Source: Crocinitomicaceae bacterium (GTDB lineage: Bacteria; Bacteroidota; Bacteroidia; Flavobacteriales_D; Crocinitomicaceae). From it: DNA of 64,000 nucleotides. This document shows, piece after piece, positions 36,458-60,272 of the stretch. The stretch spans positions 1 through 64,000 of the forward strand of contig JAKVAQ010000024.1 in assembly GCA_022447665.1 (NCBI GenBank). The letters are read 5' to 3'. Made by a program: the position numbers and the translations under genes. How positions within the stretch are numbered: the first letter of the stretch is position 1; each line of letters opens with the position of its first letter. The notes beneath the pieces were generated by a model. It was not told the DNA's origin. It made no database searches and was given only the letters and a program-made list of their open reading frames with translations.

Positions 36458-36760
36458 CTAATGGATTTTGGCGTCAATACCTCTTTCTGTTAATGCTTCA
36501 CGTTGAGGCTTAAGGAATTCATATGTTCCTTCTTTAACCGCACATTTACCATTGTAATGGATAATCCAAGTGCATTGTTCAGCCTGAATTACTTCATGCT
36601 TACAAACTTTTACTAATGAATTGATTACATGATCAAATGTATTTACATCATCATTGTAAATCACCAATTGTTTCCCAGGAACTTCCTCTACTAAAACGTC
36701 CAATTCCGCATCCGTCTGTTCTTGCTCTTGCGGGTCGTAATTTTTAATCCACTTATTCAT
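36458..36760 (-). CDS. clpS: ClpS adaptor of the ClpAP/ClpCP protease
   Basis: 100 residues. The core LVIYNDDVNTFDHVINSLVKVC, an ExxH-type segment and GKCAVKEGTYEFLKPQREAL are the ClpS fold; NDD and the downstream hydrophobic pocket bind N-degrons and pass them to the Clp ATPase. The start lies one base after the giant gene's stop, so translation is probably coupled, an unusual partner for clpS. Confidence 0.92.
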   Translation of the reverse strand: MNKWIKNYDPQEQEQTDAELDVLVEEVPGKQLVIYNDDVNTFDHVINSLVKVCKHEVIQAEQCTWIIHYNGKCAVKEGTYEFLKPQREALTERGIDAKIH

Positions 36761-36761
36761 G

Positions 36762-39700
36762 CTACTGTCCTAATAATTGTCGCGCTTTTTCTACACTAAT
36801 TTCAGAGTATTTGTGGAATGCAATAACTTTTGCTTCCTCAAATCCGTTTGCTACTAAATTATCACGAAGTTCTGAAATTTCTTCATAAGAATCTCTTCGA
36901 TCCGAGTAAAAAATTATTTCTCCTTCAAAGGTATCTTCTCTTTCAATATTGAATTCGTCATTCGCAAACAATGTATTTGCAAACTCAGTTGGAACTTCTT
37001 CATCAAATCTTCCTACCAGTACCTTGTAGTATACAGCATCCACATTATATAAAATTGAATCAGCTGATACACCTTTAATTTCATCTTGGTAACTTAGGAT
37101 TGGAATTGCAGTACCTGCATCGATTTGATTGGCTTCGTTTAATGAAATAACATCGTACTTGTAGAAAGGAACAACCTCCATAGTTTCAATACCAAAGTCG
37201 GCATATTCACGAACACGTTCTTCTACTTCCTCTTGCGAGTAAAGTTTAGTTGAGTATAAGTAAACATTACCTTCAATATCTTGCTCTGTTTCAAAAAGAT
37301 TATCTGTTTGTAATAATAACGTCGCATATTCCCCAGGAAGGTTTTCTGCATACTTACCTACTAATAAGCGGTAGTAAAGACCTTCTTTATCATATGTGAT
37401 TAGCTCCGGTTCAATAATTTCAGGTTCGAACGTAATTCTCTTTTGATCTACAAAACCTCTGTTTTTAAGGTCTTCGGATGCTGCGTCAGCCTCTGCTTTC
37501 GAATCGAAATCACCTACATAATACGTGACATTATCATTAAGGTCAGAAATCGTTAGTACACCTGCATCCTGGTTATTCAACAATCTTTCCGTGAACTCAG
37601 CTGGCACCTCACCTTGGAAGCTTCCAATTTCAATTCTATATGTCTGACCCGGTACTTCTTCTATATCCGTCCCAGTGCCTGTATCCGTTCCAGTACCTGT
37701 ATCCGTTCCAGTACCTGTATCTGTTCCAGTACCTGTATCTGTTCCTGTACCTGTATCAGTCCCAGTGCCTGTATCAGTCCCAGCGCCTGTATCAGTCCCT
37801 GTGCCCGTATCCGTACCAGTGCCAGTATCCGTACCCGCGAAACTTGAAGGGTTATCAGTACCGTCAAACAATATAGAAGAACCATTTTCGGCCAGGAGAG
37901 CATTTGCTTCGGCAACAGTAATTCGTTTTCCATTGTAATATGCCGTTACAAAGGCATCAGTAATACCGATATTTCTAATCTGGTTTTTACGCACGTTAGC
38001 ATCCTCAACATTGGCAAATACTCCAGTCGTATATCTAATCTGATTTCTAGATGTTAACTCAGAGTTTAATGGTTGAACATTGTATAATGCTGAGTTAGGA
38101 ACTGGCTTAGAGTAAACTCCAATTTGAACCGTGAAGAATAATCCTTTCATGATCTCTACTTGGTTCGCTTTGGCAGCGCCATCCGTACTTGTATAATACG
38201 ATGTAGCCGCTATTTCCTCTTCGGTGTTCGGAGTTACAGTAACACCAGTATTATTGCCGGTAGGATTTCCTGTTTGGTTACCTGTTTGATTCCCAGTCTG
38301 ATTTCCTGTTTGGTTTCCAGTCTGATTACCAATATTTGTAAACGCTAAATCAGGAGCTGTACCTTCACACTCTTCCAGTCCTTGCTCAATTCTACGTGCC
38401 TTAGAAACAGAAATTCTTTCACCATTGCAATAAGCAACTACAAAGGCATCGGTATATCCATAGCCGTTTATCTGTGTTTTTGCAGAGTTTACATCATTGA
38501 AGTTATCGAAATAACCTACCATATATCTTGTAATACCGTCTCTAATTTTTTCACCTGAAATCGGAGCAAACTGAGAGAAATAATCTTGTGGTAAAGGTTG
38601 TCTAAATGCACCTACCTGAACTTTATATACTAATCCGCTAGTTGTTCCTTTATCTACTGGAATTGGATTTTCTTCTGAATAAACAGCATTGTTTGTAGCC
38701 CTAAATATAGATCCATTGATGACCACAGGAGGTGTAAAATCTGAACTTCCATCATTCACAGAAACCGCTACGACATCAGTCGCTGCAACACCTTGATTCG
38801 CTGCAGATTTGATATTGTCTTGATCTTGAGGATCTAGATCAGCAATGGCATCATTTGCCGCTTGGTAATTTGCTATTGCTTCGTTTTTATACTCTTGCTG
38901 CTGTTTCTTTAGTTCATTAATTTCATCCTGAATAGATTTTACTTCAGGGTCATTGTTTATGGCATTGATTGCATCTTCAGTATTGTCATATGTTACACTA
39001 GCCGAACGTATTCTCTTGGTCTTTTTATCTTCTAATGCATCTATTTCAGCCTGCAGGTTATCCGCTTTCTTCATATTAGCATCACCCGCATTTTTGTTGT
39101 CTAAATAATCTTCATACTCATCTGATTCGCTAACTGATTTCTTTGTCGCTGCATCTAAATTATTGTTGATGTCATTATCCGGTAATACTGCCGCCAGCTC
39201 ACTCTCTTGATTTGCTGCATTCGTTGCCGCATCTCTCACATCCTGCGCCTCAGTTCTTAAGTCTCCTGCCTTAGCATCTAAAGCATCTGCTTCAATAAGA
39301 ATTGCCTGGCGTAGTTTCTTCTTAACCGTTTGGGCCGAATCTCTCAAGAAAGCAGCTCGTGATGAATATTCGTTCGCTTGCAGCTCAAGTGCATCAGCTT
39401 GTTGATTTAGTTCCTCTGAACGTTTTTGCCCTGAATTCGGCACTGAAGTGATGACCTCATTGTTGTTTTCTCTATTGTATTGATCAACGATAATAGCAGA
39501 TCTGTATTTACGATTCGCCTCATCAATCATATCCTTCGCTTGAGTCTCTAACGCAAATGCCTGGTTTAACAGATCATTCGCTTTCACTGGGTCCTTTGTT
39601 CTATCTGCTTGATCACGTAAATCTTTAGCCTGATTTAGCTTTTGATTTGCTTGATTAATTAAATCGTTAGCTTCCTGAACGTCAGAATTTCCAGCACTTG

Positions 39701-42700
39701 TAGAGTTCGCTACATCACTATCTCCAGCACCTGAATTTAGTTTATTCTTAATTTCTGTATCATTAACTTCTGCTAGGTCCTCAAGTATTTCATTTTCGAG
39801 CTTCGCCTTCTTGTTCTTTTCTTTATCCAACTTTTTATCGATAGAGGCTATCTCCTTATCAGATGATGCATTTTTGCGTTGTTCTTCTAGTTCATTAATG
39901 GTTTGATCAATATCAGAGATTTCATTCAAGGTACCTTGGTGGTCAGCCATAATTTCCTGACCTTCATCCGAATCAAAATCTTCAGGTGTTAAACTAGCAA
40001 CTGTTCTAGTCGTCGCTGCACCTCCAAGCTCTTCAATTCTAGCTTGGCTTGTTGCAATTTCCCCTTCTTTCTCTACTTTTAACTCACGCAACATTTTAAT
40101 CTCTTCCTGAATCGCAGGTCCCTCACTAGGATTGTTATTCCATTCTGTTTCAAGCGCCGTTATTTTCGCATCAATGGCTGCAACTAGATCTTGATGTAAA
40201 GGAATCTTCTGTGAAAGTTGATTAGCTTCATCTGCCCCTGAGGTTTCAATATCAGCAATTGAAGGCTCGTAAGTAGGCATTAATGTGCTTACAGTGATTG
40301 GCGGACGGCCAAATATATCAAGGTTGTTTACAATCTCATCGAATCGTTCATTCTCCTGTTCTTTCTGAGCCTTAATTTCATTGAGGTTTGCAATACGAGC
40401 ATCTATTTTATCTCCATTCTTAGGCTGAACCAGTTTAAGGTCTTCAAGGGTTTTAATTTCCTTATCAATCTTATCCATCAGCTCGTAATTCAGGTCGATT
40501 TTGTCGTATGATTTACTCACGGCATCTTCGTCTGTACCTTCAATAGCAGCTAAACGAGGATTGTAATCTGGCATAATTTCATCAATTGAAACTTCTGCGG
40601 AAACACCTCCAAGCAATTCTTTGTTCTTATCAATTTCTGCCTCTGCATTCGCGATTATCGCCTCAGCACTCGTAATCTCGGCATCAATATCAGCTTCAAT
40701 ATCAGGATTGTCTTTCTTCTCTTTCTTGAGCTCCTTAATCTTATCTTCTGCTAAGTCAATTAAGTTCTCATTCAACTTATTTTGCTCTTCAAGCTGCTGG
40801 TCTATAGGTTTCGCAGATCCATTTATTTCAGATTTTTTAGATTCATAATCTGGCATTAAATCGCCTATGGAAATTGTTCCGCGTTGACTACTTCCATCAT
40901 TTGTACCATCTGTTGAACCGTCATTCGTTCCATCTGTAGAACCGTCGTTCGTACCATCCGTTGAACCATCATTTGTTCCAGCATTTGTTCCAGCAGTAGC
41001 ATTTAACTCTTCAATTTTATTCTGGTTAAACTTCACCTCATTCGCTTTTCCATCTTTAATGGTGTTGAGTTCAGCTATTTCCTGATCAATCGTTGTAGCA
41101 AGATCTGGATTTGAAGATTTCTCGGCTTCAAGCGCTGCAATCTTAACATCGATTTGATTTATTAATTCTAAGTGTAACTTATTCTTATCCTCTAAACGTT
41201 TTACTTCTGGGTCTCCGCTCGACTCAATATCGGCTAAGCTTGCCAAATAAGAAGGCATAATATTGTCAATTGAAATAGGTGGTCGTGCACCATCTGTACC
41301 TGCTGTGGTTGCAGCTTGATTTATTAAATCCTTATTACGATTAATTTCAATTTCCTTGTTCGCTTTAATCTTATTTAGTTGAGCAATTTCTCCGTCAATA
41401 ACATTGGCTAAGTCAGGGTTCTCATTTTTCTCGTTTTCAAGTTCCAACACCTTGGCATCAATAGTATTGACTAGTTCAGCATGAATTATATTTTTAGACT
41501 TTAACTTCTCAATTGGTGGGTTACCCGAATTATCTACATCATTTAATCGCGAAGTGTAATCAGGCATTATTGCTGAAATACTAATGTCAGGTCGACCAGT
41601 ATCATCGGTAGCATCTCCTGACCTATTCCCTCCGGTTGTAGCTATGTAATCATTAATGCCTTGATCTAAGATTACGTTTTCTTGTACTACTTTATTTTTC
41701 TCCTCATTGAGGGCATCTATTCTCTTTTGGATTTTCTTGGCGTCCCCTGGATTATCCTCCATTAACTTCGTTAGTGTCTCAATTTCATTATCTATAATTT
41801 CTATATAGTCGTTATTCAGATCAATTAGGTCTTGATTTATTATATCTAACGGTTGATTTGAAGCCGAGATATCGTTTCTTCGATCATCATAGCTTGCCAT
41901 AATCTCTTCTTGAGTAGGCTTGGTATTGATGTCATCTGGAAGTATCGGATCAACAAGAATTACCGCTAGATCATTTTCAATAGCGTCTCTAACCTGCTGT
42001 AATCCTGCAAGTTCGTTTTTAGCATTTATATCATCAGGATTTGACTGTAAAATTTGATTTGCCTCACTAATTCCTTCCTCAACTGCGATAAGTGTTCTAC
42101 TATTAAGATCTTTTATTGCTTCAATTCTTTCATCCTCATTTTCTATCTGGTTAATTTGAGTGATCTCATCTTGGTAATTTCCAGAAATATTATTGACAAC
42201 ATCAGCATTACTATAAACAATATCTGCCGGTTTATTCGAACTCAGCCAATCTTTGTTTTGAGACACTTGGCTCGAGTATGAATCATCCATTTTCTTCAAA
42301 TTCTCGAGTCTTTTTTCAAGCACCTTTTCGTCAGGGTATTTCTTTTTAAGGGTTTCTAGCCTCATGATTTCTCCACGAATACTCTCAATTAGGTCGGTAT
42401 ATAGATCGGTTTCAGCTTTTTTGTTCAAATACTCATCAGTAATTCCTTCAATGTTGGCTTCGCGAGCATTATAGCCAGGCATTATTTCTTCGTTGGTAAG
42501 TGTAGAGGACATTGTAGAGAAATCGTAAGCTGGCTCTACTAATGGTGTAAGTATGTTCTCAGAGAGATTATCCGTGAAATCATTCAGAATTTCAAGTTCG
42601 TCTTTAGCTTCTTGATTATTTGGATCGTCTGAAAGGATTTGGTTCAGCTCCTCTTTGCGATTATTCGCATTGTTTAATACTTCTTCATTTAGATTTTGAA

Positions 42701-45700
42701 CTGCATTATTACGCTCCTCTTCATCCTCGATTAATTGGATATCGTTCATTTTATTCTCGTAATCGTTATCAAGAATTTCTAAAACATTATCACTTGTAAC
42801 CGCTACATCACCATTGGCAGAAATCCATTGTTCATCCTCATTAATCTCTCGATCAATATCCTCGATTATCGCATCGATATTGGTAATACGTTTCTTAACA
42901 TTATCTGCATCAGGATTATCTTCTAGAATCTTTTCTAATCTATTTTTCTCATCAATGAGTTCGTTTTTATACTCCTTATTCAGATTAAGATTAGCATTAC
43001 GTCGCCCCCCTTCATCATCTATGTTAGTAATATCACTTTTCTGATTTTCATAGTTCGGAAGAATTTCATCCGGCTGTACGTCTTCTTGAATACTTTCTAC
43101 ATTCGTTTCTGTCACAGAAAACTCTTCCTGTTTCTGCTTCTTAAGATCTTCATAAGCAAGAATTTCATCTTCTATTTTCTTTTTCTCCACAGGGTCCGTG
43201 GTTCCAAATAATTTCTCCTTCAAATCAACAATTTCTCTATCAATCGCCTCTTCCCATTGCGGTAAAGAATAATTTGCTGTTGCCTCAGTATCCGTAAAAA
43301 GATCCACTACTACCGCACTAGCCCCGTTATTATCAAGCTTTTGATCTACATTAGCAATATCATTTTCAAGCGAACTATTGTTGACTTTGTTCGCTATTTC
43401 ATTCTTTTGCGCATCTGTAAGTGGAGTCTTGTTTTCCTCCGTGTCATTCGCTGGGTCATTTATTATATTTCCAGCATTGGTAAGGTTGGTACCGGCATTT
43501 TGATTTCTTACTTCTTCGTAGTCCTTATTTTTTTGATTGATTTGATCATCAAGAACAGCAATATCCGAGAGGTTATTATCAATTTGTTTTTGAATCGCCT
43601 CTTTATCCTTTTTCTTCTTAGCGTTCGCAAGATCTTTTTCTAGCCTCTTATTTTCATTTAGAAGCTCAGTTTTTTGATTAGATAGATCTGAGATTTCATT
43701 CGATAATTCTTGTTCTTTCTTATTGGCTTCATTCCCCTCAGCTACAATTTGATCTATAATATTCTCTGGTTGTTGATTATCTCTTACATTGTCATTGAAG
43801 AAATTGGTATTCGCTTTCACGACGGTCTGTAATCCAGCTTTATCATCGGGCTCCAGTGCCTTAGTGCTTGCAAGAATGGTATTGGCATTATTTAATTCGT
43901 TCTCTTTTAACTCTCTTGAATCATCAATCTTCTCACCTAGTGCTATCAGGTCATCCGCTTCATCTTTCAGATCTTTAATTTCTTCATTTAGGACAAACAC
44001 TTTTTGGAACAAATTACTTCTTTCAGGTTCCGATGCGGCTTCTGCATCGGCAAGAGTCTTGTTTAATTCCTCCATCTTAGCCTCTGCTTCGTCAAATTTC
44101 TTTTGTGCCAGGTTGTAAGCTTTCGCGGCATTTTCTTTATCCAATTCAATCGCAACTTCAAGATCCTCAATCTCGTTGTCTAGTACCTGAATTACATCTT
44201 TCTGAGTAGTAAATGGATCCAGCCCCGCGTCAACAAAGATTTGCCCCTCTTCTTTGACTGCATCAAGCGAATCTAAATTAATACCATCGGCATTCGGAAG
44301 AAGTTCTGCCATTTCTCTATAAATCTCAGCAAGCACTGATTGTGGGTCATCAAACTCTTCGTTAAATAGATTTTCGATTCGAACAAATTCAATTCCTTCA
44401 GCATCTTTACCATAAACAATACGCTGCTTTAAAGGCTTAAACTCTTTTTGTGAAGGAATTGTAACCGTTTCTTGGAAGAGATCTTCACTACCCTTCACAT
44501 CGATTAAGTAATTATACTTTCCTCCTTTAGGGAATGAAATCAGGTATCCTCCGTCTTTCTTTTTAGAGTTAAAACTTCCAATTTCTTGACCAGTTGAAAA
44601 GTCCGTTACTTTAATGTTTACTTCTTTGCTATCAGGGTTAACCTCATTCACGAATGTACCTTTAACCACCGCCATTTGCATTGGAATACGCTCAACACGC
44701 ACTTTATAAACCATTAGCTTACCTTCTTCGCTTTCTCGGTTAGAGGCGAAATACGCAACCTTATCTGTAGAATCAACTACATAGAAAATGTCATCATCAG
44801 GACTTGAGATGGCAAAATCTAAGTTTTCAGGAGCGTCAAACGTATTGTCTTCCGGGTTATATCTACTTCTGAAAACATCATATCCCCCCATGGAGTTATG
44901 TCCTTTAGAAGAGAAATAAAGATATCTTCCGTTTGGATGCATGTATGGGTAGTCTTCATCATACTGGGTATTAACACCACCAAATACCTTCTGAGCTTTT
45001 GAATACTTTCCTCCAGGTAATTTTGTTTTTACCCAAATATCCAGTCCCGTAGATCCATCTTCGCCGTATGAAGAATAAAAGATCTTTTGAGAATTCTTAG
45101 GGAAAAAGATAAGAGGTCTATGATCTCTTTTCTTATCTTCTTTACTTTGGAAATCACTGTAACGTAGGATAGAACCTCCCATTTCAGACTCATCATAGAG
45201 GTTATAAAATTTCTCATCGGAGATTTCAGTCTTCTTTAATACTATGATATCCGTAATATTGGACAATAGTTTCTTACCATGACCGCAGGCTTTAATATCA
45301 ACTCCTACCAATAAATCCTTCTTTTCTGAGCCTGAACCTTTATTGTCAAATTTATTATACAGCTGAACTGCCTCATTAAACTGATAATTCAAATGGTAGG
45401 CCTTACCTAGGAAGTAATAAGCACGGTTGTCTACAGATGCACTTCGTATGGCATAACTTAGCCTAGTAATGGCTTGCTCCTTATCTTTTCTTACGAGGAG
45501 CAAACAGACTCCATAACGGAAGTTTAAATCGTAATCTTTAGGATAGTTTGTGGAGACCTTATCGTACTTAATTATTGCTGCACCATATTGTCCTTGATCG
45601 AATAGTTTATCCGCTTCTTTCCTGATATCCTCAGGGGTTTGGGCATAGGTATTGCCCGTGCCGATAATCAGCAGTAGGCAACAAATAAGGCGATATATTA

Positions 45701-45716
45701 GTCTCCTAACCTTCAG
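36762..45716 (-). CDS. giant exported TPR-PD40-coiled-coil-SPOR protein
   Basis: About 2,984 residues if started at CTG 45716; the frame has no upstream ATG before a stop, while the peptide from CTG (KVRRLIYRLICCLLLIIG, then NTYAQ) is a good signal peptide. The next usable start, TTG 45503, would discard it. Order: TPRs (about 25-140), PD40 blades (about 190-360; DYPYMHPNGRYLYFSSKG), a carboxypeptidase-regulatory-like domain (about 365-440), an acidic coiled coil (about 480-870), ten ~100-residue coiled-coil repeats (about 880-1900) each opening with an I-M-P-x-Y-like motif, an Ala-rich helical part (about 1900-2320), then five SPOR-like modules near 2362, 2525, 2692, 2779 and 2895, split by GNQTG and GTDTGT linkers. 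Very acidic, with almost no Cys. Expected in the periplasm or outer envelope, with SPOR binding peptidoglycan. clpS follows after one base. Confidence 0.85.
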   Translation of the reverse strand: MKVRRLIYRLICCLLLIIGTGNTYAQTPEDIRKEADKLFDQGQYGAAIIKYDKVSTNYPKDYDLNFRYGVCLLLVRKDKEQAITRLSYAIRSASVDNRAYYFLGKAYHLNYQFNEAVQLYNKFDNKGSGSEKKDLLVGVDIKACGHGKKLLSNITDIIVLKKTEISDEKFYNLYDESEMGGSILRYSDFQSKEDKKRDHRPLIFFPKNSQKIFYSSYGEDGSTGLDIWVKTKLPGGKYSKAQKVFGGVNTQYDEDYPYMHPNGRYLYFSSKGHNSMGGYDVFRSRYNPEDNTFDAPENLDFAISSPDDDIFYVVDSTDKVAYFASNRESEEGKLMVYKVRVERIPMQMAVVKGTFVNEVNPDSKEVNIKVTDFSTGQEIGSFNSKKKDGGYLISFPKGGKYNYLIDVKGSEDLFQETVTIPSQKEFKPLKQRIVYGKDAEGIEFVRIENLFNEEFDDPQSVLAEIYREMAELLPNADGINLDSLDAVKEEGQIFVDAGLDPFTTQKDVIQVLDNEIEDLEVAIELDKENAAKAYNLAQKKFDEAEAKMEELNKTLADAEAASEPERSNLFQKVFVLNEEIKDLKDEADDLIALGEKIDDSRELKENELNNANTILASTKALEPDDKAGLQTVVKANTNFFNDNVRDNQQPENIIDQIVAEGNEANKKEQELSNEISDLSNQKTELLNENKRLEKDLANAKKKKDKEAIQKQIDNNLSDIAVLDDQINQKNKDYEEVRNQNAGTNLTNAGNIINDPANDTEENKTPLTDAQKNEIANKVNNSSLENDIANVDQKLDNNGASAVVVDLFTDTEATANYSLPQWEEAIDREIVDLKEKLFGTTDPVEKKKIEDEILAYEDLKKQKQEEFSVTETNVESIQEDVQPDEILPNYENQKSDITNIDDEGGRRNANLNLNKEYKNELIDEKNRLEKILEDNPDADNVKKRITNIDAIIEDIDREINEDEQWISANGDVAVTSDNVLEILDNDYENKMNDIQLIEDEEERNNAVQNLNEEVLNNANNRKEELNQILSDDPNNQEAKDELEILNDFTDNLSENILTPLVEPAYDFSTMSSTLTNEEIMPGYNAREANIEGITDEYLNKKAETDLYTDLIESIRGEIMRLETLKKKYPDEKVLEKRLENLKKMDDSYSSQVSQNKDWLSSNKPADIVYSNADVVNNISGNYQDEITQINQIENEDERIEAIKDLNSRTLIAVEEGISEANQILQSNPDDINAKNELAGLQQVRDAIENDLAVILVDPILPDDINTKPTQEEIMASYDDRRNDISASNQPLDIINQDLIDLNNDYIEIIDNEIETLTKLMEDNPGDAKKIQKRIDALNEEKNKVVQENVILDQGINDYIATTGGNRSGDATDDTGRPDISISAIMPDYTSRLNDVDNSGNPPIEKLKSKNIIHAELVNTIDAKVLELENEKNENPDLANVIDGEIAQLNKIKANKEIEINRNKDLINQAATTAGTDGARPPISIDNIMPSYLASLADIESSGDPEVKRLEDKNKLHLELINQIDVKIAALEAEKSSNPDLATTIDQEIAELNTIKDGKANEVKFNQNKIEELNATAGTNAGTNDGSTDGTNDGSTDGTNDGSTDGTNDGSSQRGTISIGDLMPDYESKKSEINGSAKPIDQQLEEQNKLNENLIDLAEDKIKELKKEKKDNPDIEADIDAEITSAEAIIANAEAEIDKNKELLGGVSAEVSIDEIMPDYNPRLAAIEGTDEDAVSKSYDKIDLNYELMDKIDKEIKTLEDLKLVQPKNGDKIDARIANLNEIKAQKEQENERFDEIVNNLDIFGRPPITVSTLMPTYEPSIADIETSGADEANQLSQKIPLHQDLVAAIDAKITALETEWNNNPSEGPAIQEEIKMLRELKVEKEGEIATSQARIEELGGAATTRTVASLTPEDFDSDEGQEIMADHQGTLNEISDIDQTINELEEQRKNASSDKEIASIDKKLDKEKNKKAKLENEILEDLAEVNDTEIKNKLNSGAGDSDVANSTSAGNSDVQEANDLINQANQKLNQAKDLRDQADRTKDPVKANDLLNQAFALETQAKDMIDEANRKYRSAIIVDQYNRENNNEVITSVPNSGQKRSEELNQQADALELQANEYSSRAAFLRDSAQTVKKKLRQAILIEADALDAKAGDLRTEAQDVRDAATNAANQESELAAVLPDNDINNNLDAATKKSVSESDEYEDYLDNKNAGDANMKKADNLQAEIDALEDKKTKRIRSASVTYDNTEDAINAINNDPEVKSIQDEINELKKQQQEYKNEAIANYQAANDAIADLDPQDQDNIKSAANQGVAATDVVAVSVNDGSSDFTPPVVINGSIFRATNNAVYSEENPIPVDKGTTSGLVYKVQVGAFRQPLPQDYFSQFAPISGEKIRDGITRYMVGYFDNFNDVNSAKTQINGYGYTDAFVVAYCNGERISVSKARRIEQGLEECEGTAPDLAFTNIGNQTGNQTGNQTGNQTGNQTGNPTGNNTGVTVTPNTEEEIAATSYYTSTDGAAKANQVEIMKGLFFTVQIGVYSKPVPNSALYNVQPLNSELTSRNQIRYTTGVFANVEDANVRKNQIRNIGITDAFVTAYYNGKRITVAEANALLAENGSSILFDGTDNPSSFAGTDTGTGTDTGTGTDTGAGTDTGTGTDTGTGTDTGTGTDTGTGTDTGTGTDTGTGTDIEEVPGQTYRIEIGSFQGEVPAEFTERLLNNQDAGVLTISDLNDNVTYYVGDFDSKAEADAASEDLKNRGFVDQKRITFEPEIIEPELITYDKEGLYYRLLVGKYAENLPGEYATLLLQTDNLFETEQDIEGNVYLYSTKLYSQEEVEERVREYADFGIETMEVVPFYKYDVISLNEANQIDAGTAIPILSYQDEIKGVSADSILYNVDAVYYKVLVGRFDEEVPTEFANTLFANDEFNIEREDTFEGEIIFYSDRRDSYEEISELRDNLVANGFEEAKVIAFHKYSEISVEKARQLLGQ
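37662..37845 (-). repeat. 18-bp tandem repeat encoding GTDTGT linker
   Basis: About ten copies of an 18-bp unit encode (GTDTGT)n between SPOR-like modules 2 and 3 of the giant protein. It is open in all frames, which produces several false short ORFs. Codon variation between copies (tatcc, tatct, tatca) shows the array is not newly amplified. Confidence 0.9.
38255..38333 (-). repeat. 15-bp tandem repeat encoding GNQTG linker
   Basis: Five to six copies of a 15-bp unit encode GNQTG (last copy GNPTG) between SPOR-like modules 1 and 2 of the giant protein. Confidence 0.9.
40030..43090 (-). repeat. ten ~100-residue coiled-coil repeats in the giant protein
   Basis: Units start near plus-strand positions 43070, 42780, 42480, 42210, 41900, 41575, 41265, 40865, 40580 and 40285. 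Most open with IMPDY, IMPSY, LMPTY or ILPNY, then a short acidic turn, a helix with LINQIDVKIAALE-like pattern, an NPD/NPG turn and a second helix. DNA identity between copies is low, so this is an old duplication series. Confidence 0.75.
40890..40990 (-). repeat. 24-bp tandem repeat encoding DGSTDGTN linker
   Basis: Three to four copies of a 24-bp unit encode DGSTDGTN between two coiled-coil repeats of the giant protein, a third independent low-complexity linker in the same gene. Confidence 0.85.
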
Positions 45717-45898
45717 TTTATTGGGTTTATACCCTTTTTAAAATGTCTAATTTAATACGCTCCTTTACTGAAAAGGTTCACTTTTAAACGGATTTTTCGG
45801 GCTAAGTTTCACAAAATGCGCTAAATATAGCAAAAGGCGTACCCAAAGCGTTAAGGAAATAAGGCGTATTTAGTGAATAGGAATAGATCTTTAGTAAA

Positions 45899-47134
45899 TC
45901 AGTGAATATTCACGTGGCAAAGACAATACTTTTCAACTGGTTTTGAAAGCGCTAAGATATTTAGGTTATCCGAAGCTTGCGCCAATTCTTTTAGCTGTCC
46001 ATTACGCTGTAAAATATTGATTTGCTGATAATTCTCTGTATAAGCGCTGTTTACCAGTTTATGATGTTGAATAAAATATTTTAAATCCGCTTCTTCAATT
46101 CCAATTTTAACCTTGATTTTTTCTTTCAACTCCTCTATTCTATTGGTATCAATTGGCTCATTGGAAATGGTTGTTTTGAAGAGTTTTCTATCAATTAGAT
46201 ATTGGCATAATGTGCTTAAAATCAAGTCCTCATGCTTCGTCCAAACTTTAATACTTGAAAGTATGTCAGCGTCATCAATCATTGCAAAGTGATTTAGACT
46301 CTCATCCCTAGAAAAATTTTGTTCGTCAATATCGTTCTCCAAAAAGAACTTGAGGTGCGGACTTGCAAATAAATCAGCCCCATTTCTAAATAAGTACTTC
46401 GCTCTGTTTAAGATGTTAATCAGCATATGCTCCGAAGAAACCACTGTTTTATGCATGTACACTTGCCAATACATAATTCTTCTTGAGCCTATAAAGTTCT
46501 CAATAGAATAGATCCCTTTTTCATCCATTACCAACTTATCATCACGCACATTTAACATGGTAATAATACGTTCCGCGCCTATAACACCCTCACTTACTCC
46601 TGTGAAATAGGAATCGCGCTGTAGGTAATCTAATCGATCCATATCCAACTGGCTTGAAACCAACTGATTTAAAAATGGTCTATGATAATCATCTTTAAAA
46701 ATATCAATCGCCAGGGTCAATCTACCATCAAACTCTTTGTTTAGCTCCTCCATAAAAGCAAGAGAGATATCCTCATGATGCAACGCATCTGTTATCGAGT
46801 TCTCTAAAGTATGAGAGAAGGGACCATGCCCAATATCGTGCAATAAAATGGCCAGCGTAACGGCTTCTGCTTCTTTTTCGGATATTTCAACTCCTTTACT
46901 TCTTAATACTGCAATTGCATTCGTCATCAAATGCATAGCTCCTAAAGCATGATGAAAACGAGTATGATTGGCTCCGGGATAGACTAAATGCGATAACCCA
47001 AGTTGCTTAATCCTCCTTAATCTCTGAAAATAAGGATGTTGAATCACATCGTAGGCCAGTTCAAAGGTTATAGTAATAAATCCATGAACTGGATCGTTAA
47101 TAATTTTTCTCTTATTTATTACACGATTTTCCAA
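45899..47134 (-). CDS. HD-domain phosphohydrolase (SAMHD1/dGTPase-like)
   Basis: 411 residues. N-terminal KIINDPVHGFITI and FQRLRRIKQLGLSHLVYPGANHTRFHHALG, then the metal site LLHDIGHGPFSHTLE and SSQLDMDRLDYLQRDSYF; these are the conserved H...HD...D pattern of the YdhJ/SAMHD1-like family. It is expected to hydrolyse (d)NTPs or related nucleotides. It is divergent from porX with only 48 bp between starts, so the promoters must overlap. Confidence 0.88.
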   Translation of the reverse strand: MENRVINKRKIINDPVHGFITITFELAYDVIQHPYFQRLRRIKQLGLSHLVYPGANHTRFHHALGAMHLMTNAIAVLRSKGVEISEKEAEAVTLAILLHDIGHGPFSHTLENSITDALHHEDISLAFMEELNKEFDGRLTLAIDIFKDDYHRPFLNQLVSSQLDMDRLDYLQRDSYFTGVSEGVIGAERIITMLNVRDDKLVMDEKGIYSIENFIGSRRIMYWQVYMHKTVVSSEHMLINILNRAKYLFRNGADLFASPHLKFFLENDIDEQNFSRDESLNHFAMIDDADILSSIKVWTKHEDLILSTLCQYLIDRKLFKTTISNEPIDTNRIEELKEKIKVKIGIEEADLKYFIQHHKLVNSAYTENYQQINILQRNGQLKELAQASDNLNILALSKPVEKYCLCHVNIH

Positions 47135-47182: not shown

Positions 47183-48727
47183 ATGGAAGCTAGAATTCTT
47201 TGGGCAGATGACGAAATAGACTTATTAAAGCCACATATTATATTCTTAACACAGAAAGGATATGAAGTTGATACAGTGAATAATGGTAGCGATGCTATTG
47301 AAATGGCCGAAGAAAATAATTACGATGTAATTTTTCTAGACGAGAATATGCCAGGACTCACTGGACTTGAGACATTAAGTGCTATCAAAGCAAAAAGACC
47401 TTCTGTTCCCATAATCATGATTACTAAAAGTGAAGAAGAACATATTATGGAGGAAGCCATTGGTGGTCAAATCTCTGATTATCTTATTAAACCCGTTAAT
47501 CCGAATCAAATCCTACTTAGTTTAAAGAAGAATCTCCAAACAAAAGATTTAGTTGATCAGAAAAACACGCATGACTATCAGGTAGAATTCCGCCAATTAG
47601 CTATGCGAATAAATGATAGGCTGGATGCTTCTGAATGGTCTGACATTTATAAAGAACTAGTAAGGTGGGAGCTAAGACTTGAGAAGTCAAGTGACTCCAG
47701 CATGAAGGAGATTTTCAATATGCAAAAGAAAGAAGCGAATGCTCAATTTGCTCGTTTTATTGATGAGGAATATGCCGCTTGGATTGAAGGCGATGAAGAC
47801 GCTCCCGTTCTTTCACATAATGTACTGAAAGAGAAGCTATTCCCTGCTCTTGGAAAAGAACCCGTTTTTTTAGTGGTAATCGATAATTTACGCCATGATC
47901 AATGGAAAGTAATGCAACCCTTGATTTCTGAAATGTTCACGATCGAAAAGGAAGAAACCTTCTACTCCATCTTACCTACCGCAACACAATATGCTAGAAA
48001 CGCATTATTCTCTGGATTAATGCCTGCAGATATTCAGAAAAAACACCCCAATTATTGGTTAGGTGAAAATGATGAGGGAAGTAAAAACCAATTCGAAAAG
48101 GAGTTGTTTGAAGCGAACCTTAAGCGCAATCATATTAATGTTAGCATGAATTACACTAAAGTGATTAAGCTGGACTTCGCAAAACGTCTGGTTGACCGTT
48201 TTGAAGACTTAATGAAATATGATGTGAACGTAATCGTCTACAATTTCGTAGATATGCTCTCTCATGCGCGAACTGATATGGAGGTAATTAAAGAATTAGC
48301 CGATGATGAAGCGGCATACCGTTCATTGACTCTTTCATGGTTTAATCATTCACCGTTAAAAGAAATGCTGAAGAAAGTTGCCGAGAAAGGGATTCGCACT
48401 TTCCTTACTACTGACCATGGAACTATCAAGGTAAGCAATCCAGTAAAAGTAATTGGAGACAAGAACACCAATACAAATCTACGTTATAAAACAGGTAAGA
48501 ATTTGAATTTTGATGAAAGCGAAGTAATGGTTGCTAACTCACCAGAAAGAGTTAAACTACCAAAAGAAAATGTTAGCTCATCCTTCATTTTCGCGAAGGA
48601 GAATGACTTCTTTGCTTATCCTAATAACTACAATTATTACGTGAATTATTACAAGGATACTTTCCAACATGGAGGAATTTCATTAGAAGAAGTTATTATA
48701 CCATTTGTTGAGTTAAAAGCGAAGTAA
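47183..48727 (+). CDS. porX: PorX, T9SS two-component regulator with PglZ domain
   Basis: 514 residues. A CheY-like receiver (WADDEIDLLKPHI, phosphoacceptor D53 in FLDENMPGLTGLET, K in YLIKPVNP) is followed by a helical linker and a PglZ/alkaline-phosphatase-like domain: VFLVVIDNLRHDQWK, LPTATQYARNALFSG, VYNFVDMLSHARTDM and FLTTDHGTIKV supply metal ligands. PorX regulates T9SS with PorY/SigP in Porphyromonas, and its PglZ domain is a phosphodiesterase. porY is not in the window. T9SS cargo genes lie elsewhere in the window. Confidence 0.96.
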   Translation: MEARILWADDEIDLLKPHIIFLTQKGYEVDTVNNGSDAIEMAEENNYDVIFLDENMPGLTGLETLSAIKAKRPSVPIIMITKSEEEHIMEEAIGGQISDYLIKPVNPNQILLSLKKNLQTKDLVDQKNTHDYQVEFRQLAMRINDRLDASEWSDIYKELVRWELRLEKSSDSSMKEIFNMQKKEANAQFARFIDEEYAAWIEGDEDAPVLSHNVLKEKLFPALGKEPVFLVVIDNLRHDQWKVMQPLISEMFTIEKEETFYSILPTATQYARNALFSGLMPADIQKKHPNYWLGENDEGSKNQFEKELFEANLKRNHINVSMNYTKVIKLDFAKRLVDRFEDLMKYDVNVIVYNFVDMLSHARTDMEVIKELADDEAAYRSLTLSWFNHSPLKEMLKKVAEKGIRTFLTTDHGTIKVSNPVKVIGDKNTNTNLRYKTGKNLNFDESEVMVANSPERVKLPKENVSSSFIFAKENDFFAYPNNYNYYVNYYKDTFQHGGISLEEVIIPFVELKAK

Positions 48728-52991: not shown

Positions 52992-55367
52992 CTATCTTTC
53001 GATAATTATCTTTTCAGTTTGTATTGATGTTTTAGTTACTACTCTTACCATGTAAACTCCGGCATTCAAGTCTGCAACATCAACCAAAGTTTTTGTACTC
53101 GTGATATTGGAAGTAAATACTATGCTTCCTTTAACATCTATAATTTCAATATACGCATCTGCAATTGATCCATTCAAAGAAACCGTAATATTATCATTTG
53201 TAGGATTTGGATAAACCTCAAAGTCTAGAGCCTTTTCAAATTCTCCAGCGCTAGAAAGCGTATAGCAATATGAGGTATCTGTACAAGCACCAACAGTAAC
53301 TATACAAGCATAATCTCCATCAGCAGGTGCTGTAAAATCTTGATCCGTTTCTCCGGTAATAATAGTCATACTCGTGCAGTCATACCATTGGTAAGTATCT
53401 ACCGAAGCTGATGCTGATAATGTGAATCCAGATACTGCTATAGAAGTATCTACAGGAGTAGCAGAACCAATAGACTCATCTATCAATTTACCATAGCAAC
53501 CATTCGCATCTTTGACCATTAAATCATAATCTCCTCCAACGAGGGATGCAATATCTTCACTGTCATCAAAATCTCCTGTTCCATCATTATCCCAATCGTA
53601 GTCGTATGGACCACCAGTACCTCCTACTACACTAACTTCTATTCCTCCGTCACCTACACCAGGACAGGTTTCATCTGTCACGTTATCAACCGTTACTGTT
53701 AGCACCTCATCTACTATAACGTTAGCAATAGAAGTACAAGAATCTACATTTCCATATATGTCAACGCCATAAAGCTTCACATTTACCATTCCTGAATCAG
53801 CACATGAAACCGTTGTTAAATCTAACCAGACAGAATCCAAACCACAATTGTCTGTTGTTCCTGCATCAAAATCTGAAACATTCAACGTTCCTGTACCCGT
53901 TGCATCAAGAATAACGTCTATTGAACTAACGCAGCTAACAACCGGTGGTAAAGTATCGAGAACAGTAACGGTAGACACACAAGAATCAGTGACCAGTCCA
54001 TTCGTTGCAATATACCAAACTGATATTCCGGCAGAAGCACCTCCTGAAGTATGTGTCCCAACAGGAACAGGTGTAGTAGCAGTAGCGTTGGTAGTTTCAC
54101 CATCTAAAGCATTGGCTCCAGAAAATGTCCAGTTACTAAGAACAAAGGTTGAGCCATCAGGACCCGTTAAATCATTTCTATATGCCCAGCCATCTTCATA
54201 ATCCCAAGGTTCTCCGGTTCCATCAAGATCAATAACACCGAATACATCTATTACAATTCCATCTTTAAATAACTCAATAGCATCATCACCGTTAATGTTG
54301 GAAGCACTTGAGGTATAATCCGGTGCAAAGCCAAACCAAGTTGTAAAGTTTGTAGACTCATTTGAAACATAAATATAATCTCCCGCAGTGGCACTTACTG
54401 CAGGGAAGGTAAACTCTTCACCATCTGTACCGCCACCGTTATTTGCAGATCCAAAGCCATAAACACTAAGGTCAGCTATATCGCTTTTGATAAAAAATTC
54501 CACCCCTTTTGGTGTTCCTCCAGATAGCGGACCATCATAAACCGCAGAGATAACCATTGCTGGCCCGCCTCCAATATCTGAACAATCAAAAGTAGTTTTA
54601 GAAGCAGAACTATCAACCACCCCAGTTGATCCTCCATCGAGGTCGCCAGGAACTATTGTTGCCGTTCCAGCAGCATCAAGGTACACGTTTATGTCCTGAC
54701 ATGCAACGGTTAAAGGCAGAGCATAGGTTATTTCTAATGTTGGAGCTGTACCTAGTTCATCTGAACCAAAACGACGGGCATTACCAGTAACTCCTTCATT
54801 TCCAATTAAAATTAATCCGAAGTTTGAGCCTGGAGTATCTAACCAGGACTGTACTTGTGTCGTGAATGCTGCCGAAGACCAAGAATAAGAACCTGTTGTT
54901 GTAAGTGTAGTTGATGCTAATGAAGCCCCAAAATCACCTCCCGGTGTTGTCCAAGAGGAAGACCCAAAAAGATTATTCGTCCACGTTGCATCTCCTATGG
55001 TAGCAGCATCTCCGGCACCACCTCCTCCAAGACCAGGGCCAGAAGAACCTTCTCCCCATGCTGTCGTTACTGGATGAATATCGTACACATCAGTTCCTGA
55101 ACCAGGCCCTGTATTATCACAATTTAAAGTTAATGTTGCAGAAACTATTGTTGCCCCCGCTGGTATGGCGCCGTCAACATCAAATTGAATTAAAGCTCGT
55201 CTTAAGTCATCTGAATTGGTGGTTCCACTGAACAGCCTTCCCGTTGCGTTAGACAGCGAACCGTCCTCATTAAAAATTGAGTTATCAAGCTCTGGAGTTA
55301 TAGTAACGGTTTGAGCAGTAATTGCTGAGGAGGCCCCAATTAAGCCTAATAGAAATAGTTTTTTCAT
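52992..55367 (-). CDS. large secreted T9SS cargo protein with DNRLRE-like, lamin-tail-like and HYR-type repeats
   Basis: 791 residues. Signal peptide MKKLFLLGLIGASSAITAQ. The N-terminal ~215 residues look like a DNRLRE/CBM96 domain (RALIQFDVDGAIPAGATIVSATLTL, TTQVQSWLDTPGSNFGLIL). HYR-type segments follow (VACQDINVYLDAAGTATIVPGDLDGG), then a lamin-tail-like domain (KGVEFFIKSDIADLSVYGFGS), another HYR, a SprB-like repeat (VDNVTDETCPGVGDGGIEVSVVGG) and an Ig-like part. FEVYPNPTNDNITVSLNG to IIIER is the T9SS sorting domain. Expected to be surface-anchored; ligand unknown. It ends in a terminator. Confidence 0.82.
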   Translation of the reverse strand: MKKLFLLGLIGASSAITAQTVTITPELDNSIFNEDGSLSNATGRLFSGTTNSDDLRRALIQFDVDGAIPAGATIVSATLTLNCDNTGPGSGTDVYDIHPVTTAWGEGSSGPGLGGGGAGDAATIGDATWTNNLFGSSSWTTPGGDFGASLASTTLTTTGSYSWSSAAFTTQVQSWLDTPGSNFGLILIGNEGVTGNARRFGSDELGTAPTLEITYALPLTVACQDINVYLDAAGTATIVPGDLDGGSTGVVDSSASKTTFDCSDIGGGPAMVISAVYDGPLSGGTPKGVEFFIKSDIADLSVYGFGSANNGGGTDGEEFTFPAVSATAGDYIYVSNESTNFTTWFGFAPDYTSSASNINGDDAIELFKDGIVIDVFGVIDLDGTGEPWDYEDGWAYRNDLTGPDGSTFVLSNWTFSGANALDGETTNATATTPVPVGTHTSGGASAGISVWYIATNGLVTDSCVSTVTVLDTLPPVVSCVSSIDVILDATGTGTLNVSDFDAGTTDNCGLDSVWLDLTTVSCADSGMVNVKLYGVDIYGNVDSCTSIANVIVDEVLTVTVDNVTDETCPGVGDGGIEVSVVGGTGGPYDYDWDNDGTGDFDDSEDIASLVGGDYDLMVKDANGCYGKLIDESIGSATPVDTSIAVSGFTLSASASVDTYQWYDCTSMTIITGETDQDFTAPADGDYACIVTVGACTDTSYCYTLSSAGEFEKALDFEVYPNPTNDNITVSLNGSIADAYIEIIDVKGSIVFTSNITSTKTLVDVADLNAGVYMVRVVTKTSIQTEKIIIER

Positions 55368-57148: not shown

Positions 57149-57727
57149 TCAGAAATCTAGGAATAGCAGACCAGAGTTTAAAAAATCAGCAGCATATTTC
57201 ATTCCTCCAGAAAGTCTCACATCCCAATTAAAACCGTTCTCATATTTCTTACCTATTCCGTATCCAATAAGTGGCATAAAATAATTTCGATTTTCCCGCA
57301 CTACATTAGTCACAGCACCTTGTAAGTCTACAGTTCTGTATATTACTTCAGACTGAAGCAAGTAATTCATCGATAAAAAATAGCGTGATTAAAGTTTATC
57401 AGGTTTTCCAGCAATTAATCCAACTTCAGTTCCTAGAACCAGGTTTGAATTATAGGTTATCCTTGCAAAGTAACCCGCGTTCACCCCAGCGTAAAAACTA
57501 GAAGTTCTAGGACCATTTTTTGAAATATCCTTTTCCCAGGGAGACATTCCATTCTCACAACGAACGAATACGCCTGATTGAAGACCAAAATGTCCAAGAT
57601 ACCCTGCACTAATTGATGTCTGAGCGCAAGCACCATTCGAGAAGAATGATAAAAACAAGGCTATAAATACAGGTCTAAACACGCTCAAACAAACCAAATT
57701 ATTTTTTAATAACCATGATTTCAACAC
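57149..57727 (-). pseudogene. outer-membrane beta-barrel protein, in-frame TAA
   Basis: One frame from ATG 57727 reads a signal peptide (PVFIALFLSFFSNGACAQ), SISAGYLGHFGLQSGVFV, VNAGYFARITYNSNLVLGTEVGLIAG, then TAA after KPDKL at 57389, and continues SRYFLSMNYLLQSEVIYRT, GYGIGKKYENGFNWDVRLSGGMK to LLFLDF at 57149. The alternating pattern and DVRLSGG fit a small outer-membrane barrel. The start overlaps the preceding OmpA gene by 29 bp. Confidence 0.6.
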
Positions 57728-60047
57728 GACGATTAAATCGTTTTTGTTCTTCGTTATTATTTGTTTTTAAAGGCTTCCATTCACCATAATAGTAAACCTC
57801 AATTTGATCGTAATCTGCTCCATTAGACTCTAACTTTCTACGTACAGTTTCTGCGCGTTTCTTTGAAAGAATGAGATTATAGTTTTCTGACCCATCATTG
57901 TCTGTATGCCCAACGATTACAATATGGTATTTACTTCCATCTGAGAAGTCGTAACGCTTTGCAAGTGCAATAATTTGTTCGTTGTAACTATTCGAAAGTG
58001 TTGCATCATCTTTATTGAAATAAACATTTAAGCTTTCAACTTTGTCTCCTGTTACGAAGGTATCTTCTATCACTTGAGTACCATCTTGCATTTCGTTTTC
58101 CGGTTCATCTTCTTTAATGATTTCTATCTTTTCTTCAGTGTGGTTTGGATCCACCTCTTTTTTACTTTCTTGGAAGTCAATTTTCTCAAGATTCGTAGAA
58201 TCGATAGGACAACCATCGTTATAAATTGAGCCAGCAACTTCAGGGCACTTATCTAGCGAGTTTGTAATTCCATCTCCATCGTTATCCGTGCAACAACCTG
58301 GATTCTCAAATGGGCATCCATTATTAAATTCAATTCCTGGAACATCTGGACAACGGTCTGCAACATCAATTACTCCATCCTTATCTCTGTCCGGACAACC
58401 ATAATGCACGGCCAATCCCGGCTCTTCAGGACATTGATCATTTAAGTCAATTACACCATCCCCATCGGTATCAGGACAACCATTATGCTCAAGAGGTCCC
58501 GGTGAATAAATACAATAGTCTTCTTTATCTGGAATACCGTCAAAATCAGTATCTGGACATCCGTTCATCTTTAAAGGACCTGGATCATAAATACAATCAT
58601 CAATTAAATCCGATACCTTATCACCATCAATATCTGAAGGAATGGTATACGGAATTTGGTAAGAGAAACCTAAGAAAGTATTTCTATTAAATTTTGCTCT
58701 TTTCCCAAAGAGATTTGTAATGTTATTTGATCCTCCGAAAAATGAAAAAGCACCTTCTGCGAAGGTATAGCGTGCTGATATTCCCACATTAAACTGAGCA
58801 TTTCTTTGAATGGTTAGAGGCACACTAACACCAATCTTCGCGCTTTCATATCGAGGTATAATTGAATGAATGGATTTAGAATGTACTTTATGAGGATCCG
58901 CCTTTCTTTTTAAGGAAGTTGACGAAGCATATCCGATATAAATATTATTCCAAAGATTATAATCAAATTGAAGATTTAAGGTAGTTGGTAAGTTCATTAG
59001 AAACTTCTCTTTTTGGTTATCATTCTCAACCGAGTTTGCAGCAAGTGAATCAAAAGATTGCAATACGTTAATTCCTCCTCCAGTAATAGCGACAAAGCTC
59101 AGTTCTCCCATGTCAGCCATATTTTGGTCAGTACTCACTGTAGTAAAATCGTAAGTAGTGGTATCACGCGAAAAACGAACGCCACCAATATCTGTAATAC
59201 TCGCGCCAACTTTAAATAGGTACTTATTTTTGTCATATCGTTCTATGTTGGCTTTACCATCCATATAGTATCTATATTCTCTGAAAAAAGGACGATATTC
59301 ATAAACTACACCTAAATCAAGACCGAAGCCCAGCTTTCTGGTGGTAAACATATTCTCTTTCTCCGCTTGCCCATAGCTAAACTCCGTTACTGTGATATCC
59401 CCGTTAGTTCCAAAAGGCTGATCGAATTGAAATTCCCCATCTCTCGCATGCAGGTAAGTAGCATCAATACCGTTTATTAACTTCATTGCAACTCCTGCTT
59501 TAATAAATCTATCCCCTTCATCCTGAATCACACGCGCATAATTAAATCGATGCTCATTGTATACAAACTGTACGTAATTGTAATTACGCATTGTAATTGG
59601 AGTATTAAGTGGCTTAGTGTCGTCATATCCATTAAATATTGCTTCTGTCCAAGCATTATCCAAGCCATCAACATTGCCAAAAGATCGAATTCTGAAACTA
59701 TATCCTACAGCATTTTCGTGATTAATCTCATAATGTGCTCCCAGCACGTCAAAACTTGTATTTCTAAATTGATATCCATTATTGAAATGGTCTCTGTAAC
59801 GCGAATTTTCATTTCCAAAAAGCGTGCTTATCACACTGGCATTATTACCACTGTAATTATTCCCTGCTAAGAAGTTAAACGAACTTACAACGCTCACTTT
59901 GTTGACTGAATTAACAATGGATGCGGGTTGAAAATAAGACCCCGTATAACCGTTATAATTGTCTGTTGCAAAACCTGTATAATTGTTTTGTGCTGAAGCT
60001 AAATATGGAAAAAGAATTGCTGAAAGAAGAATTAGTCTGTAAGTCAT
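57699..60047 (-). CDS. OmpA-family outer-membrane protein with DUF5723-like barrel and calcium-binding repeats
   Basis: 782 residues from ATG 60047 (MTYRLILLSAILFPYLASAQ signal peptide; the upstream ATG 60074 would put nine residues before it). A ~430-residue N-terminal barrel region (NNYTGFATDNYNGYTGSYFQPASIV, DUF5723-like) is followed by five thrombospondin type-3-like Asp repeats (DTDFDGIPDKEDYC, DTDGDGVIDLNDQCP, DRDKDGVIDVADRCP, DNDGDGITNSLDKCP) and an OmpA domain (VIVGHTDNDGSENYNLILSKKRAE, RFNRRVEIMV) for peptidoglycan binding. This long OmpA type is common in Flavobacteriales. Confidence 0.9.
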   Translation of the reverse strand: MTYRLILLSAILFPYLASAQNNYTGFATDNYNGYTGSYFQPASIVNSVNKVSVVSSFNFLAGNNYSGNNASVISTLFGNENSRYRDHFNNGYQFRNTSFDVLGAHYEINHENAVGYSFRIRSFGNVDGLDNAWTEAIFNGYDDTKPLNTPITMRNYNYVQFVYNEHRFNYARVIQDEGDRFIKAGVAMKLINGIDATYLHARDGEFQFDQPFGTNGDITVTEFSYGQAEKENMFTTRKLGFGLDLGVVYEYRPFFREYRYYMDGKANIERYDKNKYLFKVGASITDIGGVRFSRDTTTYDFTTVSTDQNMADMGELSFVAITGGGINVLQSFDSLAANSVENDNQKEKFLMNLPTTLNLQFDYNLWNNIYIGYASSTSLKRKADPHKVHSKSIHSIIPRYESAKIGVSVPLTIQRNAQFNVGISARYTFAEGAFSFFGGSNNITNLFGKRAKFNRNTFLGFSYQIPYTIPSDIDGDKVSDLIDDCIYDPGPLKMNGCPDTDFDGIPDKEDYCIYSPGPLEHNGCPDTDGDGVIDLNDQCPEEPGLAVHYGCPDRDKDGVIDVADRCPDVPGIEFNNGCPFENPGCCTDNDGDGITNSLDKCPEVAGSIYNDGCPIDSTNLEKIDFQESKKEVDPNHTEEKIEIIKEDEPENEMQDGTQVIEDTFVTGDKVESLNVYFNKDDATLSNSYNEQIIALAKRYDFSDGSKYHIVIVGHTDNDGSENYNLILSKKRAETVRRKLESNGADYDQIEVYYYGEWKPLKTNNNEEQKRFNRRVEIMVIKK

Positions 60048-60272
60048 TACTTGAATTTTTTGCAAAAGTAACAAAGATTATACCACTGTTAATTTTTTGT
60101 TAAAACGTATTGTTACTGCATATAAGTCGGACAAGAAGAAGGTAACCCTACTCTATCCAAACCTTTATGTAGTTAACTCTATTTTGTAACTAATTATTAT
60201 GGAGTTTTGTTCATTAATTTAGGATTTCAATAATGACCCACAGGATAATCTATGGGATCGGTAGACTTCACC

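Follow-up and report, generated by a model that had tools for sequence, protein, structure and literature searches.

A widespread, unnamed family of giant Bacteroidia proteins with a PorE-like head, a helical rod and SPOR modules

The described proteins closest to the one considered here are PorE (PG1058) and the CHU_0125-type proteins on the one hand, and the SPOR proteins CwlC, FtsN, DamX, DedD and RlpA on the other. PorE has been reported to be a lipoprotein with TPR, propeller, CRD and OmpA_C domains (PMC5053529). In RlpA, Q270, F274 and a basic patch were reported to hold the glycan (PMC6895207), and SPOR proteins of E. coli were reported to be found at septa in the presence of amidases (PMC7642682).

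The present analysis concerns a very large protein (hereafter the giant) encoded in a 64,000-nucleotide stretch of DNA from a Crocinitomicaceae bacterium, the whole of which is referred to as the window. The giant has a TPR region, a PD40 propeller and a CRD in the same order as PorE and the CHU_0125-type proteins, and a C-terminal peptidoglycan-binding module is, in concept, common to both. However, these proteins carry OmpA_C where the giant has SPOR modules, PorE is a lipoprotein whereas the giant is without a lipobox, and the giant has a propeller that is about 90 residues shorter and a chain with more than 1,800 extra residues. With the SPOR proteins the giant shares the SPOR strand/helix order and, in its first two modules, the residues that contact glycan (Gln, an aromatic and a basic one); unlike them, its family places between two and five SPOR modules on a single soluble chain and adds a PorE-like head, neither an enzyme domain nor a membrane anchor being seen.

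The reading frame and its 5' end are as follows:

36762-45716, minus strand: giant ORF, 2,984 codons plus stop, with orthologues in relatives
45714-45716, minus strand: CTG, best candidate start codon, no ATG, GTG or TTG being present in frame ahead of the signal-peptide core
45642-45716, minus strand: signal peptide (by eye), type I-like, residues 1-25, no lipobox

Translation of the stretch gives an uninterrupted frame over this length, preceded by an in-frame stop at 45740. Scanning of the window DNA from this stop to the signal-peptide core revealed no in-frame ATG, GTG or TTG, and CTG at 45716, as the best candidate, is preferred to the other candidate, ATA at 45698; the program-made ORF call begins at a TTG (45503) which lies within the TPR region. 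The genome (4.06 Mb) is assembled in 84 contigs, and the named records closest to it in the genome collection are those of Crocinitomix, Fluviicola and Brumimicrobium, which makes a place within the Crocinitomicaceae probable. The frame is not a chimera, since the 40 relatives which were fetched are single long ORFs with matching domain order (among them, the ORF of L070 begins within the PD40 region and that of L050 is truncated at a contig end). The ORF of about 2,984 residues, with its modules, that the earlier note had read from the letters alone is thereby confirmed.

That note had also considered the giant to be exported, in agreement with which its N-terminus resembles, by eye, a signal peptide ending in ...NTYA before a Q, and 98 of 100 family ORFs (a set which held some duplicates) possess a hydrophobic stretch, the same number possessing an A-x-A-Q-like site. 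A lipobox was found in none of 98 non-redundant relatives by pattern search, nor by eye in the window protein. For the start-codon analysis, L152 was left out of a set of 98 as its signal peptide lies beyond the DNA read. In 35 of the remaining 97 no ATG precedes the signal-peptide core (18 GTG, 15 TTG and 2 CTG), a number which represents a lower bound because any ATG located 45 to 13 codons ahead of the cleavage site was accepted as the start. The corresponding number for the neighbouring gene c0 (see below), drawn from partly different genomes, is 1 in 45 (Fisher 2.7e-6, kinship ignored). One possible meaning of these non-ATG starts is that weak initiation keeps a very long protein scarce.

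The N-terminal part of the mature chain constitutes the PorE-like head:

45237-45629, minus strand: TPR region, residues 30-160 (iterated family profiles; Pfam TPR_16 below cut-off)
44682-45134, minus strand: PD40 propeller region, residues 195-345, shorter than that of PorE (Pfam, family profiles, profile comparison)
44418-44675, minus strand: CRD-like domain, residues 348-433 (family profile; the PorE-like profile alignment extends into it)

Profile-profile comparison of this head against five PorE-like proteins encoded in the same genome gave a probability of 100 and an E value of 5.8e-40, the alignment containing a gap in the giant's propeller of roughly 90 residues. The NCBIfam PorE model scores the giant at 72.8 bits against a cut-off of 600, over profile positions 291-480 of 648, and a Pfam scan found no OmpA match, the C-terminus being occupied by SPOR5. 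Judged by sequence, the head is homologous to that of PorE (TPR-PD40-CRD), yet the giant is not a PorE; the start had indeed been described beforehand as PorE-like with OmpA missing. Matches of the giant to MamA, BBS4 and CTPR were set aside as generic TPR.

The window encodes a further protein with a related PD40 head and a C-terminal SPOR module, P0002 (1410-3734, minus strand), a 774 aa PorE/CHU_0125-like PD40 protein. It ends in a single SPOR module, which shares 49% identity with the giant's SPOR2 and keeps, by eye, the Gln and the Arg, but it has no long helical array; P0002 represents a short version of the giant's design. Three other window proteins were recorded: a 1,168-aa protein with Amidase_2, CUB, PKD and T9SS sorting domains (16386-19892, plus strand), a 791-aa protein that combines a T9SS sorting domain with a SprB repeat scoring just under the cut-off (52992-55367, minus strand), and a 791-aa protein with DUF5723, TSP_3 repeats and OmpA (57699-60074, minus strand).

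Between head and tail lies a long helical region:

40044-43259, minus strand: array of 11 tandem helical module matches ("IMPDY" motif), residues 820-1891 (family profile; self-comparison)
40897-40995, minus strand: short TG/N/D-rich low-complexity insert between two modules
38697-40043, minus strand: helical region from the modules to SPOR1, residues 1892-2340 (predicted model; aligned in relatives)

This middle part had been announced as a coiled-coil array of over 1,000 residues. A long helical middle was indeed found, on average 31% charged and with 5% proline plus glycine across 97 relatives, but residues 820-1891 consist of 11 matches (the first of them partial) to a repeated and undescribed helical module of approximately 100 residues, the last copy of which, the only one folded, is modelled as a helical bundle of one short and two long helices. 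Self-comparison of the giant's middle yielded 919 high-scoring windows as opposed to 0 in one shuffle, and such profile-free comparison shows repeats in the giant and in some relatives which lack the module. The module is present in 51 of 100 non-redundant ORFs at 0-16 matches each, a count which is not independent given that this profile, like the SPOR profile, was built from the family set in which its matches were counted. The distance from CRD to SPOR1 ranges from 820 to 2441 residues across 97 relatives and correlates with the number of module matches (r 0.78). Considering that the length of this region varies threefold, it is likelier to be a spacer or slack element than a strict ruler.

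The C-terminal part carries five SPOR-like modules and TG-rich linkers:

38388-38636, minus strand: SPOR1, residues 2361-2443, Gln, Phe and Arg kept (model, family profile, residue alignment)
38256-38330, minus strand: NQTG-rich linker, residues 2463-2487
37896-38144, minus strand: SPOR2, residues 2525-2607, Gln, Tyr and Arg kept (model, family profile, residue alignment)
37665-37835, minus strand: GTDTGT linker, residues 2628-2684
37431-37649, minus strand: SPOR3, residues 2690-2762, Glu instead of Gln (Pfam, model, residue alignment)
37122-37382, minus strand: SPOR4, residues 2779-2865, Leu instead of Gln, low-confidence fold (model, residue alignment)
36774-37034, minus strand: SPOR5, residues 2895-2981, Leu instead of Gln, fold matching the CwlC SPOR (model, structure comparison)

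Five modules near residues 2362, 2525, 2692, 2779 and 2895 had been proposed, and the family profiles place them at 2361, 2525, 2690, 2779 and 2895, all five SPOR seeds converging on the same five places; the TG-rich linkers, likewise proposed, were recovered and include an 18-bp DNA repeat at 37664-37832. Pfam SPOR (cut-off 21 bits) scores SPOR3 at 25.8 and SPOR1 at 18.7 bits and does not match SPOR2, SPOR4 or SPOR5. As Pfam thus passes SPOR3 only, the assignment of the remaining modules relies on the family profile and on fold prediction. The SPOR profile retrieves the SPOR domain of CwlC (E 4.8e-6), placing the Gln opposite that of CwlC VQIGAF, and FtsN weakly (0.32), and Pfam SPOR matches 27 of 41 family modules at E 0.1. 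Matches of PDB entries to the TG linkers, and of NCBIfam FliH models (about 22 bits versus cut-offs of 180 and 192), were rejected as composition artefacts.

A failure of the modules to fold as SPOR had been named in advance as a ground for abandoning the assignment, which the structure prediction did not refute. The model predicted for residues 1795-2984 from 60 aligned sequences has the SPOR order (beta-alpha-beta-beta-alpha-beta) in all five modules, in SPOR4 at low confidence, with ten-residue pLDDT means mostly above 90 in SPOR1, SPOR2 and SPOR5, of 62-90 in SPOR3 and of about 48-75 in SPOR4. Structure comparison aligned SPOR5 with the CwlC SPOR (1x60) at Z 6.6 over 78 residues and 4.3 A, a range which the tool warns may be common, and Foldseek found no match for the tail model at E <= 0.001. 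The SPOR5-CwlC match is the only one used, the other tail matches being mainly helical bundles without meaning; since one domain can fill the match list, the absence of the other SPOR modules from it is uninformative.

The Gln conserved in SPOR1 and SPOR2 corresponds to the Gln reported to contact glycan in RlpA (PMC6895207). Across relatives it occurs in 96/97 first, 96/96 second, 21/55 third, 0/14 fourth and 0/6 fifth modules, and an Arg or Lys at the RY position occurs in 94/97 first and 96/96 second modules, the third having 2 Arg among 55. Because SPOR3-5 of the giant lack the glycan-contacting Gln, and have on this basis probably lost glycan binding, the earlier proposal of a peptidoglycan anchor is retained as plausible for SPOR1 and SPOR2 alone.

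The giant belongs to a large, widespread and unnamed protein family, roughly 1,600-3,500 residues in length, for which neither Pfam nor NCBIfam holds a name and no description was found in searches of open-licence papers, in line with the prior statement that no protein with such a layout was known to have been described. Matches to the whole protein were obtained in 59 of 59 relatives, in some of them through short PD40 paralogues only. In 100 non-redundant ORFs, some of which are cut by contig ends, PD40 was found in 100, CRD in 100, TPR in 98 and SPOR in 97, these 97 having two (41), three (41), four (8), five (6) or one (1) SPOR modules. Within the order, 149 of 199 genomes have a match to the head profile at E 1e-60; the giant, not being found in the other 50, is thus not a universally required part. 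Here "without giant" means without a head match at this threshold, at which a diverged copy could remain, and 20 of these 50 genomes were looked at further. In a sample of the class, 117 of 198 genomes have a head match at E 1e-45 and 99 a best E value of 1e-95 or lower; 94 of these 99 strong carriers, spanning 29 families, lie outside the giant's own order, and 18 genomes with best E values between 1e-45 and 1e-62 were not counted because short PD40 paralogues score in that range. Only two head matches at E 1e-60 were found among 296 high-completeness genomes of the phylum, this sample and that of the class both being unevenly drawn.

Further ORFs of 968-1,008 aa that bear the head (G531:C83, G533:C27 and G651:C6) occur beside a longer match in their own genomes, and possibly constitute a shorter paralogue of the giant. 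The giant of one record (L086, Glaciecola amylolytica THG-3.7) resembles those of Fluviicola records, and this record is probably misnamed.

Our preferred reading, to which we assign a probability of roughly 0.55, is that the giant acts as a peptidoglycan-anchored soluble periplasmic tether of loosely constrained length. According to this reading the protein would be exported by Sec by means of its type I signal peptide, following which the TPR-propeller-CRD head would, by analogy with PorE, dock on an envelope partner. SPOR1 and SPOR2, which have the requisite residues, would bind peptide-stripped glycan strands as do other SPOR domains, and this binding would place the giant at sites of wall remodelling, such as the septum. 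The helical modules would then serve as a spacer between the head and the SPOR ends, providing reach or slack (the range of lengths is observed, the role is deduced from it) rather than a strict measure, SPOR3-5 may contact proteins or add length, and the rare start codon would probably keep the copy number low. On this reading the head would work like that of PorE and SPOR1-2 like other SPOR domains. The lack of a lipobox, and of any T9SS C-terminal sorting domain in Pfam and NCBIfam scans (the Pfam model does match two other window proteins), fits with such a tether.

Among the alternatives, that which survives best derives from the gene neighbourhood, in which the following gene is often kept within the order (25 of 40 relatives' loci):

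36458-36760, minus strand: clpS, downstream of the giant

The same 40 loci contain plsY in 23 cases and, in 37, a gene for an unnamed protein of about 1,500 residues located upstream of the giant and termed c0, with a signal peptide by eye (L038-L077, L080-L159). If c0 were a groove-like lipid conduit, the giant could be the scaffold of a lipid-handling complex, holding c0 against the wall. Besides this adjacency, c0 is present in 21 of 21 giant carriers versus 14 of 20 non-carriers (Fisher 0.009, kinship ignored). The model of Crocinitomix catalasitica c0 (residues 349-1547) is confident (mean pLDDT 86.9) and mostly strand, and its Foldseek list is headed by ApoB100 (8.1e-5) and LptD (1.6e-4 and 3.4e-4). 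In VIA it aligns with LptA (Z 8.7, 120 residues, 4.0 A) and LptD (Z 8.1, 136 residues, 3.8 A), both values being near the background range of the tool. The resemblance of c0 to the beta-jellyroll fold of LptA and LptD is weak and partial, extending over 120-136 residues, and c0 differs from these proteins in having no sequence-family match and in carrying a winged-helix-like insert; separate LptD-type and OstA-type genes are present in the giant's genome.

Several observations count against such a scaffold. The whole-chain TM-scores of the first five Foldseek rows are tiny (0.05-0.13), the unrelated propeller DDB1 follows closely at 9.3e-4, and the top three VIA rows match the winged-helix insert only. 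A search of 18 c0 members at E 1 produced no Pfam lipid- or LPS-transport family, and no convincing Pfam match at all. As to the neighbourhood, 80 loci of the named collection comprise 49 with c0, 13 which were not judged and 18 which lack c0 although their upstream DNA extends to 5.2 kb or more. The genome to which the window belongs has c0 on another contig, after tpiA and prmA, the giant and clpS adjoining an HD gene and porX rather than c0. Of 11 loci from head-less genomes, some of which end at a contig edge, two have the order c0-plsY-clpS and two c0-clpS, and none contains a head or SPOR match within the fetched stretch; with plsY, clpS, tpiA and prmA being housekeeping neighbours, the adjacency may be incidental. 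A lipid conduit function of c0 is a lead, not a result, and the scaffold explanation as a whole appears unlikely to us.

A cell-division protein of the FtsN/DamX/DedD type, which would signal at or hold the septum via its SPOR domains, is suggested by the two modules with conserved glycan residues and by the septal localisation reported for E. coli SPOR proteins in the presence of amidases (PMC7642682). The giant, however, is without a transmembrane anchor or cytoplasmic part, gave no match at E 1e-60 in 50 of the order's 199 genomes, and has no recognised division gene among its few identified recurrent neighbours. FtsN, DamX and DedD have both a transmembrane anchor and a cytoplasmic part. 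We consider a division role of this kind to be quite improbable.

The earlier note had further suggested a link to gliding or the T9SS, for which the giant would be an accessory part, i.e. a SPOR-bearing replacement of PorE, as its PorE-homologous head, the presence of SprA and PorX in the genome and the location of porX two genes away might indicate. The porX gene (47183-48727, plus strand; PorX 825.7 bits, cut-off 300) is divergent from an HD-domain gene (45899-47134, minus strand), but neither occurs in any of the 40 relatives' loci (flanks of about 1-4 kb), and porX adjacency was consequently discarded as a clue. The phyletic comparison with the T9SS that had been recommended found SprA in 40 of 41 genomes, including 19 of the 20 without giant; the T9SS thus persists where the giant is absent, and SprA, being near-invariant, cannot separate carriers from non-carriers. 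Given, in addition, that PorE-like proteins coexist in the genome (the best at 466 bits over nearly the whole profile, below the cut-off of 600) and that no open-licence paper was found joining "SPOR domain" and "T9SS", a role in the T9SS or gliding is very unlikely and the suggested link is not supported.

Returning to the giant as a wall-anchored tether, a wider and distinctly improbable proposal may be built upon it, namely that giant and c0 are two large parts of an undescribed Bacteroidia envelope-spanning system, in which the adjustable tether would position a distinct lipid conduit, resembling LptD, wherever peptidoglycan is being remodelled, thereby tying outer-membrane lipid supply to wall growth. 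As for c0 itself, it may provide a second bridge for lipids alongside the Lpt system.

With regard to the family itself, which was detected via its head in about half of the class sample, the PorE-type head proves to be a module able to combine with SPOR in place of OmpA. A chain that carries both intact and degenerate SPOR modules provides a built-in test of glycan-binding residues, and the range of 0-16 module matches, a naturally occurring set of rod lengths, offers a way to explore what length a tether between wall and envelope can have.
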